DNA of 64,000 nucleotides, from assembly GCA_031177685.1 (NCBI GenBank), contig JAPSGI010000013.1:1-64000 (forward strand), given 5' to 3'. Below are positions 37,891 to 48,154 of the stretch, one piece after another. Below the pieces are notes generated by a model, which did no database searches, was not told where the DNA came from, and saw nothing but the letters and a program-made list of their open reading frames with translations. A program made the position numbers and the translations under genes. The DNA is from Solirubrobacteraceae bacterium (GTDB taxonomy: Bacteria > Actinomycetota > Thermoleophilia > Solirubrobacterales > Solirubrobacteraceae). Each line of letters starts with the position of its first letter. Position 1 is the stretch's first letter.

Positions 37891-37956
37891 CCTCGAGTGC
37901 GCCTGGGGTGACTCGAACACCCACCGGCCTTACGGCCGACAAGGCCCTCAACCTTG
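37891..37956. repeat. Left att copy: 66-bp repeat of the tRNA-Leu 3' part
   Basis: A perfect 66-bp direct repeat of 48089-48154. It begins CCTCGAGTGCGCCTGG and ends CAACCTTG. It contains the tRNA-Leu(GAG) 3' part from the anticodon loop to the discriminator, on the minus strand. The sequences diverge immediately on both sides. This is the distal attachment site of the island. Confidence 0.95.
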
Positions 37957-38013
37957 GCCGTGCCTGGTTCGTGGTGTTCGCGGTGGTTCGAAATGCCCGT
38001 GGGGGCGGGGTTG

Positions 38014-38066
38014 GGCGAACGTGGCGAACGTTCTGTGACAACGCGGATGTTGTCACGGCGTTGTCA
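38014..38066. repeat. Left arm-type repeats: GTTGTCA x3 and a 9-bp tandem
   Basis: TGACAAC at 38036-38042 is followed by GTTGTCA at 38049-38055 and 38060-38066. The last two are in direct orientation, 11 bp apart. Just before them GGCGAACGT occurs twice in tandem (38014-38031). The same GTTGTCA pair with the same 11-bp pitch is found at the other island end (48005-48022). These are probably integrase arm-binding sites. Confidence 0.7.
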
Positions 38067-38106
38067 TGGGCGGATGGCCGCGATCCCTGGCCACCGCTGA
38101 TGCGTC

Positions 38107-38640
38107 CTAGGCCATGGGTGGGCTCTCCCAAGCCTCGTAGTCCAGCGTCCGAACGATCGAGGCGGGTTCGAGGCGGTCGAAGAAGATCGCCAGCACGGTC
38201 CCCGAGCCCGTCGCCGAGGGCGCGATGATGCCCTCCCGTCCCGTGTACTCGGCGGCCTCGCCGATCGCTTGGCAGGCCCTGAGCTCGTCGCCTTGCACGT
38301 CCTCATCCTTGAGCTCCACCGCGGCCCGCGCCGCTTCCGGACGCAGGTCTACAAGTTCGACCACGTGAAGTTCGTAGCGGTACAGGCGGCGAGGGAGGAA
38401 GTCCTCGGGGCGACGGCCGACGCGGCGGGCCATGCGCTCGAACTCCGCGATCGCCGTCGCGCGCTCCACAGCCAGATACAGGGTTGCGAAGCTTCCGCGC
38501 GGGTTCCATCGACCGCCCTGGCTGCGGGCGCCCGCTCCCGACAGAGGGTTCCATCTAGCCGCGAGGTGGCGGTACGCTGGACCCTCGTAGGCGGTTGGTG
38601 CGAGGCCGTCAACCGCCGCGACGAGATCGGGAGACGGCAC
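38107..38640 (-). CDS. res: RES-domain toxin (type II toxin-antitoxin)
   Basis: A 177-aa toxin with the RES fold, related to ADP-ribosyltransferases. The conserved Arg is in YRHLAARWNPLSG, followed by GGRWNPRGSFATLYLAVE, the conserved Glu in AIAEFERMARR, and the Ser in EGIIAPSATGSGTVLAIFF. RES toxins deplete NAD+ by phosphorolysis or hydrolysis and stop growth. Length and motif order are normal. The gene starts 8 bp after the antitoxin stop, probably by translational coupling; the GTG has no strong Shine-Dalgarno. Such pairs stabilise islands and can act in phage defence. Confidence 0.92.
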   Translation of the reverse strand: MPSPDLVAAVDGLAPTAYEGPAYRHLAARWNPLSGAGARSQGGRWNPRGSFATLYLAVERATAIAEFERMARRVGRRPEDFLPRRLYRYELHVVELVDLRPEAARAAVELKDEDVQGDELRACQAIGEAAEYTGREGIIAPSATGSGTVLAIFFDRLEPASIVRTLDYEAWESPPMA

Positions 38641-38648
38641 TCAGCGGG

Positions 38649-38987
38649 CTACGCGTAGACGCCTTCGGCCATGGCGTCGATGGCGCCAAGGACACGTCGG
38701 TACTCACGATCCCGCAGCAGCTCAACAGGTTTGTGGTGGTCAAGCAGCGGATTCGGTGTGAAGAGCCAGTCGTGCGCCGCCTGGGGCCTGAGGACACCGG
38801 AGAGCTGCTCGAGCACTGCGATCAACTCCAGGAGGCGCTCCCGCGCGTCCGGGCGCGGCTCCGTCTCGCCCTGTAGCCAGCGCGCCACGGTGCGGGGGTT
38901 CGCGTCAAGGACCCGGGCGATGTCCGCCTGTTGAAGCGCGATCAATGAACTCGCCTGCTCCAGCTTGTGCGCCAGGGCCGCCAACAC
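38649..38987 (-). CDS. xre: Xre/MbcA/ParS-type antitoxin
   Basis: A 112-aa antitoxin. An N-terminal HTH (LIALQQADIARVLDANPRTV then ARWLQGE) is followed by the toxin-binding domain of the MbcA/ParS/Xre family (HDWLFTPNPLLDHHKPVELL and YRRVLGAIDAMAEGVYA). It neutralises the RES toxin by covering its active site and represses the operon. The GTG at 38987 has AGGAGA 3-8 nt upstream. The promoter lies in a 44-bp gap shared with a divergent unknown gene. Confidence 0.92.
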   Translation of the reverse strand: MLAALAHKLEQASSLIALQQADIARVLDANPRTVARWLQGETEPRPDARERLLELIAVLEQLSGVLRPQAAHDWLFTPNPLLDHHKPVELLRDREYRRVLGAIDAMAEGVYA

Positions 38988-39031
38988 GTCTCCTCTCTGT
39001 CGTCCGCTGTGTCACCTACAGTGTCGGCTCT

Positions 39032-46772: not shown

Positions 46773-46794
46773 GGCTGTTGACCGTCACGGCGCC

Positions 46795-47955
46795 TCAGGC
46801 CGCCGAGCCCAACCCCCAGATCGCAGCCTCCGTCTCATTGGCGGCGGTCTGCTGGCGGGTGTCCTCCAGATGGCCGTAGTAGCGCTCGGTGATCGTGATC
46901 GAGCTGTGGCCGAGCTGGCGCTGGACGAACATCAGCGGCTGGCCCGCCGACAGCCAGGCGGCAGCGGCGGTGTGACGCAGCGAGTGCAAGGGCATGTCCC
47001 GGAGGCCCGCGTCCATGAGCGCGGCCTTGTGCCAGTCCCGCGAAACGGTGCTGCGGTCGATCGGCTCGCCGTCCCCGCGACCTTCCCACCGGCCCTGGTC
47101 GCCCTTGAGTCGGCGCGTCGGCATGACGAACACGAACTCGCCGCGGAGGTCGCCGGTCGCATGCTCGCTTCGGCGAGCACGTAGGTCGCTCAGCAGACTC
47201 AACAGCCGGTCACCGACGATCACCTGCCGGAAGCGGCGGCTCTTGGTCGCGCCGACGCCCTCGGCCGTCCGCTGGCGATAGACGCGGATCGCCTTGGCTC
47301 CGAAGTCGATGTCCTCCCATCGCAGGGCGAGCGCCTCGCTGATCCGCATCCCCGTCGCGATCAGCAGCTCGGCCAGCGGCCGGTAGACCTCCGAGCACTC
47401 ATCCAGATACCTCGGGATCTCGACACGGTGCAGATAGTCGCGCTCGATGTGCCGCTCGGGCACGTGAGACACGTGCTCGCACGGGTTGAACGCGAGCTTG
47501 CCCAGCGCCACGGCCTCCTTCATGCAGGTGCTCATGCACGTCAGCGCGTTGTTGACCGTCTTGGGGGCGACATCGCCGGCTTCGACGGCCTCGACCATAA
47601 GGCCGATCCACGCGCGCATGAGGGGGACGTCGATCGCCGAGAGCCGCTTGGAGCCGAAGAACGGCTTGAGACGGCTGGCGCCGTGCCGGCGATAGTCCTC
47701 GCGTGTGCCCTTGCTGACGGTGTGATGGCCGCGCAGCCACTCGTCGAACCACTCACCGAAGGTCTGGCGCGTGGTTCGCAGCTCCCCGCGCTCAGCCCTC
47801 TCCATCATCCGCGATCGGTACTTCGCGGCCGCCGTGGCGCTCGGGAAGCCGCGCTTGCTGCGCTGCTGGCCCGCGGAGTCGCGAAAGGCGCAGCGATAGA
47901 GGGTCTGGCTCCCCACTCGATACGGATAGACGCCCGGGTACTCGCGCCTCGCCAT
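46795..47955 (-). CDS. int: Tyrosine recombinase / integrase of the tRNA-Leu island
   Basis: A 386-aa integrase. It has an arm-binding N-terminus (YPGVYPYRVGSQTLYRCAFR), a core-binding domain (TFGEWFDEWLRGHHTVSKGT) and a catalytic domain with Arg in ATGMRISEALALRW, H-x2-R in LHSLRHTAAA, His in LGHSSITIT and Tyr in ERYYGHL. It lies about 140 bp from the intact tRNA-Leu with arm-type repeats between. The ATG at 47955 has GGGAGG 11 nt upstream; a longer start at 48057 would cross the arm repeats. It is not closely similar to the integrase at 923. Confidence 0.95.
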   Translation of the reverse strand: MARREYPGVYPYRVGSQTLYRCAFRDSAGQQRSKRGFPSATAAAKYRSRMMERAERGELRTTRQTFGEWFDEWLRGHHTVSKGTREDYRRHGASRLKPFFGSKRLSAIDVPLMRAWIGLMVEAVEAGDVAPKTVNNALTCMSTCMKEAVALGKLAFNPCEHVSHVPERHIERDYLHRVEIPRYLDECSEVYRPLAELLIATGMRISEALALRWEDIDFGAKAIRVYRQRTAEGVGATKSRRFRQVIVGDRLLSLLSDLRARRSEHATGDLRGEFVFVMPTRRLKGDQGRWEGRGDGEPIDRSTVSRDWHKAALMDAGLRDMPLHSLRHTAAAAWLSAGQPLMFVQRQLGHSSITITERYYGHLEDTRQQTAANETEAAIWGLGSAA

Positions 47956-48004
47956 CGTGCCTGCCGCCTCCCTTGCCGTCGTGGTCCTAACGGGCCGTTC
48001 CGTT

Positions 48005-48022
48005 GTTGTCAGGATGTTGTCA
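48005..48022. repeat. Right arm-type repeats: GTTGTCA x2, 11-bp pitch
   Basis: GTTGTCA at 48005-48011 and 48016-48022, direct and 11 bp apart, exactly as at 38049-38066 on the other island end. Confidence 0.7.
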
Positions 48023-48065
48023 GCGGGTCCGGACGGCAGGGGTGGGGGGAGGACCACGAACAGCG

Positions 48066-48088
48066 AAAAACCCCGTAACCACGGGGTT
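48066..48088 (-). terminator. Intrinsic terminator of tRNA-Leu
   Basis: On the minus strand AACCCCGT pairs with ACGGGGTT around a 4-nt loop and is followed by TTTTT (48066-48070). It lies 8 bp beyond the tRNA 3' end and keeps tRNA transcription out of the integrase. It is inside the island side of the att repeat, so the element brings or preserves its own terminator. Confidence 0.85.
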
Positions 48089-48154
48089 CCTCGAGTGCGC
48101 CTGGGGTGACTCGAACACCCACCGGCCTTACGGCCGACAAGGCCCTCAACCTTG
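48089..48154. repeat. Right att copy: 66-bp repeat within tRNA-Leu
   Basis: Perfect match of 37891-37956. It spans from 7 bp outside the tRNA 3' end to the anticodon stem-loop (…CTCAACCTTG). Integration at the anticodon region restores an intact tRNA here. Confidence 0.95.

Follow-up and report, generated by a model that had tools for sequence, protein, structure and literature searches.

What cargo does a 10.2-kb element lodged at a tRNA-Leu gene carry, and how might that cargo favour its persistence? The element occupies positions 37,891 to 48,154 of a 64,000-nucleotide stretch (the window) of a Solirubrobacteraceae bacterium, taken from positions 1 to 64,000 of contig JAPSGI010000013.1 (assembly GCA_031177685.1). 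A preliminary description made from the sequence alone had recognised an island with a RES-Xre pair and listed a neighbouring 416-aa protein, here called p416, as unknown; it is no orphan but a conserved third gene beside RES-Xre, which that description had missed. On balance we lean towards reading the region as an integrative island at tRNA-Leu that carries a three-gene RES-Xre module as stability cargo, with p416 an accessory that tunes or triggers it. The novelty lies in p416 as the third gene of such a module, the RES-Xre family and the type of tRNA island being already known.

A RES-Xre pair with a conserved third gene

The presence of a RES-Xre pair was borne out, both proteins scoring above their Pfam cut-offs. 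The RES-domain toxin (38107..38640, minus strand), of the NAD+ phosphorylase family, matches PF08808 (8e-19; 68.6 bits against a cut-off of 23.2), and the Xre/MbcA/ParS antitoxin (38649..38987, minus strand), separated from it by an 8-bp gap, matches PF09722 (31 bits against 24.5). Residues R24, R44, W45, Y55 and E66 of RES are invariant over 19 loci, and the window copy reads PSA at 141-143. According to the literature, RES enzymes degrade NAD+, Xre neutralises them and Xre-RES autoregulates its promoter (PMC12457610, PMC12204516), in P. putida with the complex repressing via an imperfect inverted repeat (PMC12204516). The plasmid-enriched COG5654-COG5642 pair was described as two genes by Makarova et al. 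2009 (PMC2701414). The window unit shares with MbcTA, ParST, NatRT and the P. putida Xre-RES the R, W, Y and E columns of RES, an adjoining Xre/MbcA/ParS antitoxin and plasmid enrichment, but differs from these type II toxin-antitoxin systems in its conserved third gene. The available portions of the GndRX and Xre-RES papers do not mention a third gene of the p416 kind, and we found no three-component RES system in the open literature, subscription papers and preprints lying mostly outside that coverage. The earlier statement that the contents match no described system thus holds in part: RES-Xre is a known toxin-antitoxin family, whereas the three-gene form is absent from the libraries and papers searched.

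The p416 gene (39032..40282, plus strand) belongs to a conserved family with a predicted TIM-barrel-like fold, and it adjoins Xre-RES in 28 loci, namely the window and 27 others that we inspected (10 other genomes and 17 plasmids). Every confident p416 found in the relatives has Xre and RES at its side. The hosts range from Thermoleophilia to Mycobacteriales and Alphaproteobacteria, with many of the loci on plasmids, and the relatives found include Solirubrobacterales and Gaiella-type metagenome-assembled genomes. Two arrangements recur. RES-Xre lies head-to-head with p416 in ten genomes (G338, G077, G264, G256, G052, G519, G501, G403, G709 and G486), among which p416 identity falls to ~20-27%, and p416 is likewise divergent from Xre-RES on plasmids of Gordonia, Rhodococcus, Mycolicibacterium and Clavibacter, being co-directional in Gordonia SMJS1. 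On plasmids of Nitratireductor, Mesorhizobium, Rhizobium, Chelativorans, Aminobacter, Roseivivax, Pukyongiella, Celeribacter and Shinella the order is a single operon, p416-Xre-RES (the Shinella locus was placed by coordinates, its Xre not being read directly), and the measured p416-Xre distances run between a 4-bp overlap and 15 bp. The association also appears in reverse, p416 being found in 24/30 plasmid records that hold relatives of the window RES (M. poriferae and Clavibacter sp. A6099 by profile; for M. avium and C. michiganensis from coordinates alone); the remaining six, of Pannonibacter, Roseovarius and Aminobacter, of which three were inspected, seem to hold the gene pair without a third gene.

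The three proteins have also diverged together. Over 19 loci the Mantel rho was 0.80 for p416-RES, 0.77 for p416-Xre and 0.76 for Xre-RES, with 0/2000 permutations in each case. As far as sequence comparison can tell, this shows inheritance as a unit, an outcome that physical linkage alone could yield and that does not prove interaction. Taken at the level of sequence, the loci show RES, Xre and p416 to be one inherited unit, which in Actinomycetota and Alphaproteobacteria occurs on islands as well as on chromosomes and plasmids.

The arrangement places p416 to share control with Xre, across a 44-bp divergent spacer in the window (38988..39031) and at an operon spacing of no more than 15 bp in Alphaproteobacteria. 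The divergent spacer is a candidate two-way promoter/operator; it holds TGTC[AG] repeats at ~12-bp spacing, and within the short Xre/p416 spacer of the window, as in that of five close relatives, such repeats lie about one helical turn apart. Spaced pairs of the motif number 7 against 0.4 expected over these six loci, a count reached in 0/2000 resamplings, although these are related loci and the motif was picked post hoc, so that the value reflects conservation as well as chance. The spacer is likely a shared operator.

Resemblances of p416

Scans of p416 and its relatives with Pfam, NCBIfam, PHROG and PADLOC gave no meaningful match, and a PDB sequence search with three queries gave no significant one. 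A weak match in G097 (L087) was taken as spurious for want of a related reading frame. Relatives of p416 were also absent from the viral contigs and phage records searched; p416 is therefore not phage cargo in those sets.

A C-x4-C...H (HYL) motif stands before a long predicted helix, placed as in tRNA-guanine transglycosylase (TGT), and a TGT-like layout was suspected from this motif and the predicted helices ahead of folding. The folding jobs used five sequences only. A first AlphaFold model (mean pLDDT 47) had TGT structures as its top three Foldseek matches in the PDB, at E 2e-4 to 4e-4, and a second, of the L088 protein (pLDDT 57, pTM 0.63), gave TIM barrels of various kinds; archaeosine TGT was among its best matches and had the longest alignments, and no match fell below E 0.001. 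The TM-scores of all fold matches were low (<= ~0.4). These models suggest that p416 may be a TIM barrel, possibly TGT-like. It would share with the TGT/DpdA superfamily a predicted TIM barrel and a C-terminal Cys/His motif followed by helices, but it has no sequence-level match to that superfamily, whose signature motifs and nucleophile are not conserved in it.

It would be logical to ask, then, if p416 is itself an enzyme whose substrate is tRNA, DNA or a nucleotide and whose reaction is transglycosylase-like, with RES-Xre guarding or complementing it, for example because both act on N-glycosidic bonds. The TGT structures heading the first set of Foldseek matches, the long archaeosine TGT alignments of the second and the TGT-like position of the Cys/His motif all speak for such an enzyme. 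Nevertheless PF01702 is unmatched in every p416 member scanned, a profile comparison with real TGTs was not significant, and neither the DSGGFQ motif nor the Asp nucleophile is conserved in the p416 alignment; on these grounds p416 was rejected as a true TGT at the sequence level. Add to this the lack of the Cys ligands in the Rhodobacterales copies and the low confidence of the fold models, and we regard an enzymatic p416 of this kind as rather unlikely, though it is the strongest of the alternatives.

Role of p416 in the module

Under the reading that we prefer, of a three-gene module with p416 as accessory, Xre together with RES would repress through the shared spacer and would also block RES. 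Loss or displacement of Xre would leave RES to consume NAD+ and arrest the cell, so that cells losing the island or plasmid would be penalised. In this scheme p416 would tune or trigger the module and would not be its neutraliser. The part that we prefer for p416 is that of a sensor or ligand-binding protein built as a TIM barrel, which would relieve Xre on meeting a cue, for instance foreign nucleic acid or altered nucleotides; this is a guess, and one we would put at somewhat worse than even.

The broken copies of p416 bear directly on this. RES and Xre are kept where p416 is frameshifted (L085), truncated (L086, L097 and L098) or split by IS256 (L129, M. rufum, a complete plasmid). Because the pair persists in these loci, p416 would not be the neutraliser; RES apparently stays silent without it, and hence p416 seems not to be an antitoxin. 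The SecB-like chaperones of the TAC and CmdTAC systems are needed for neutralisation, and by analogy p416 might be a second antitoxin or chaperone. Its constancy as third gene of a toxin-antitoxin locus, often within the same operon, would fit such a part, and TAC and CmdTAC loci likewise encode a third protein alongside toxin and antitoxin. However, RES and Xre remain in the five loci with a broken p416, one of them a complete plasmid, and there are related RES-Xre pairs that do without it as two-gene forms. Moreover, p416 differs from the chaperones of TAC and CmdTAC in matching no family of the libraries searched and in seeming dispensable for RES silence, as judged by the broken copies. 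A neutralising p416 is accordingly one that we hold to be improbable.

Nor is it easy to see the neighbourhood as chance, that is, as co-travel on the same mobile elements. Most p416 copies do sit on plasmids or islands, where any neighbours move together, but direct adjacency in 28 loci of two phyla and in two arrangements, p416-RES co-divergence as strong as that of Xre with RES, and the conserved shared Xre/p416 spacer make this explanation very improbable.

Several points nonetheless weigh against a tRNA-Leu island whose RES-Xre module is tuned by p416. The fold models are of low confidence (mean pLDDT 47 and 57). The Cys/His motif is missing in Rhodobacterales members, and a single common catalytic chemistry is therefore doubtful. 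Sequence errors could account for some of the broken copies, which come from draft genomes; the IS-split copy is on a complete plasmid. RES-Xre is missing from the tRNA-Arg island that holds a distant homologue (L082), and the p416 fold can therefore work elsewhere. As to the island, its genus is represented by two genomes, and the left neighbours differ between these two congeners, which prevented the alignment of a strict empty site.

A wider proposal is that p416 founds a new family and that the trio is a triggered defence or addiction system, in which a transglycosylase-like TIM barrel, by sensing or altering nucleic acid or nucleotides, releases an NAD+-destroying toxin; we offer this as speculation, less probable than the accessory role itself. 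The preliminary description had spoken of defence or stability cargo, and stability is plausible from RES-Xre, while the scans gave no support for defence, RES and p416 having no PADLOC match and p416 no phage relatives in the sets searched. RES-Xre modules are widespread, and to our knowledge little is established about what sets them off in nature. The retention of p416 with RES-Xre across two phyla offers a direct handle on the question of that trigger, and the module gives context to proteins of environmental, rhizobial and mycobacterial plasmids whose sole annotation is "hypothetical".

Some neighbours of p416 and its relatives deserve mention in their own right. In the Celeribacter ethanolicus plasmid (L126), qatA of the Qat anti-phage system follows the p416-Xre-RES operon with a 4-bp overlap, and in Pukyongiella (L125) a restriction endonuclease gene adjoins the operon on the opposite strand. 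A site-specific DNA methyltransferase-like gene (L085:7288-9123, G264) directly adjoins the RES of the trio. The truncated p416 of L086 (G256; 3203-3589 and 1740-2060) is joined to a copy of sequence 1.4 kb away, and its break is therefore due to a local duplication or an assembly join. The distant p416-like protein of L082 (5013-6269, G054) carries a more TGT-like CDCPAC motif and adjoins an HD-domain protein (3098-4450).

The island and its insertion site

The 10.2-kb region is a site-specific insertion at tRNA-Leu, confirmed here as an ordinary tRNA island, and the boundaries first described were upheld in full. Repeat copies of 77 bp at 37885 and 48083 are 96% identical and share a 66-bp exact core, which forms the distal (37891..37956) and proximal (48089..48154) attachment (att) sites; over the whole genome (3.15 Mb in 31 contigs) the att repeat has two copies only. 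The proximal copy lies within an intact tRNA-Leu(GAG) found by ARAGORN (48095..48181, minus strand), which stands beside lexA, as is conserved in the family, and the distal copy exactly repeats the 3' part of that tRNA, the repeat spanning from the anticodon arm through the 3' end. The intrinsic terminator ascribed to the tRNA was also found, as a strong hairpin contributed by the island side of the junction (48060..48094, minus strand; -20 kcal/mol, z -4.73, U-rich arm), and the distal copy has no such fold (z +0.9). An Rfam scan of 37000-49000 gave no match at gathering thresholds.

The tRNA end of the island holds genes for a tyrosine integrase (46795..48057, minus strand; 420 aa from the first start codon, matching phrog_1) and an excisionase-type HTH_17 protein (45475..45717, plus strand), the latter identified by profile matches and kept beside the integrase in relatives; a MADS-type match of the excisionase was set aside as a generic domain match. 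Four relatives of other genera (G013, G049, G083 and G084) carry integrases 43-54% identical to that of the window at tRNA-Leu(GAG)-lexA, each with a similar excisionase, and two of them, G049 and G084, have islands of ~6.4 kb marked off by a further att-like copy (83 bp, 90%). Since same-clade integrases with a small excisionase occupy the same tRNA-lexA site in these four, the vehicle is an ordinary tRNA island, and the comparison by integrase that had been proposed earlier favours insertion. As regards an empty site, the congener G001 has tRNA-Leu and lexA with no integrase there, and a left flank that is not syntenic with that of the window genome. An AKR gene adjoins the tRNA in G001, and a search of the window genome for it found only distant paralogues.

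That the locus is ancestral, its repeats due to chance or gene conversion, is scarcely credible: the non-syntenic left flank would suit it, but the 66-bp exact match is confined to the tRNA 3' part, integrase and excisionase adjoin the tRNA, four relatives have same-clade integrases at the same site (two with a second att-like copy), and a congener carries the tRNA without an integrase. The same genes without the repeats, which the preliminary description had named as the observation that would speak for an ancestral locus, do occur in the case of RES-Xre-p416, though what recurs there is a cassette set among other surroundings; it is therefore modular cargo, and the insertion is not undone.

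Other genes of the island

Like actinobacterial islands of the integrative and mobilizable or actinomycete integrative and conjugative (IME/AICE-like) kind, this one has a tyrosine integrase, an excisionase, an FtsK/HerA-like ATPase and tRNA att sites; it differs in its frameshifted ATPase, in having no recognised relaxase or replication initiator, and in being only 10 kb long. The coupling-type (HerA/VirD4-like) ATPase (43757..45494, plus strand) was rightly called broken, as comparison with relatives shows a single open reading frame (ORF) of 488-544 aa in them and three frames in the window, the second break being an abutting frame change near 44910. The frameshifts reflect either lost island function or assembly indel errors. 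Its HerA match was judged a generic domain match, and PADLOC gave only weak helix-turn-helix and generic ATPase matches over the island genes. The replication-relaxation protein of the earlier description (42970..43764, plus strand) stands weakly, as MobC/replication-relaxation-like, with no Pfam match and NCBIfam MobC_subf at E=0.008. Its relatives adjoin HerA/VirD4-like ATPases in other Thermoleophilia islands, and in L155 the relaxation-type gene, ATPase, excisionase and integrase follow the same order as in the window. Mobilizability was consequently sustained only in part, given the frameshifted ATPase, the weak relaxation-type match and the fact that no relaxase, secretion genes or replication initiator were recognised on the island.

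The 350-aa protein (45720..46772, plus strand) owes its HNH label to a C-x2-C...EH...C-x2-CN-like pattern; this Cys/His pattern is present, but no HNH model matches the protein in the Pfam, NCBIfam, PHROG and PADLOC scans. Full-length relatives at 28-32% identity lie on plasmids of several phyla (Rhizobium, Agrobacterium, Bradyrhizobium, Lactiplantibacillus and Peribacillus), have no Pfam family and, in the three inspected, no fixed neighbours. A 168-aa protein with no function assigned (40667..41173, minus strand) has relatives on Rhodococcus and Streptomyces plasmids.

The small helix-turn-helix protein with operators also found support. The 70-aa protein (41548..41760, plus strand), for which no model scored above cut-off, is likely a local repressor, and two perfect 19-bp palindromes of the form TGTCTAG-N5-CTAGACA (41457..41475 and 41491..41509) are the sole such sites within the window, against 0.03 expected. 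The pair lies between a 66-aa minus-strand ORF and the 70-aa gene, perhaps as a self-contained small regulatory switch. Upstream of the relaxation-type gene, a 28-nt inverted repeat (42584-42646; 89% complementary, 7-nt loop) is a possible origin or terminator.

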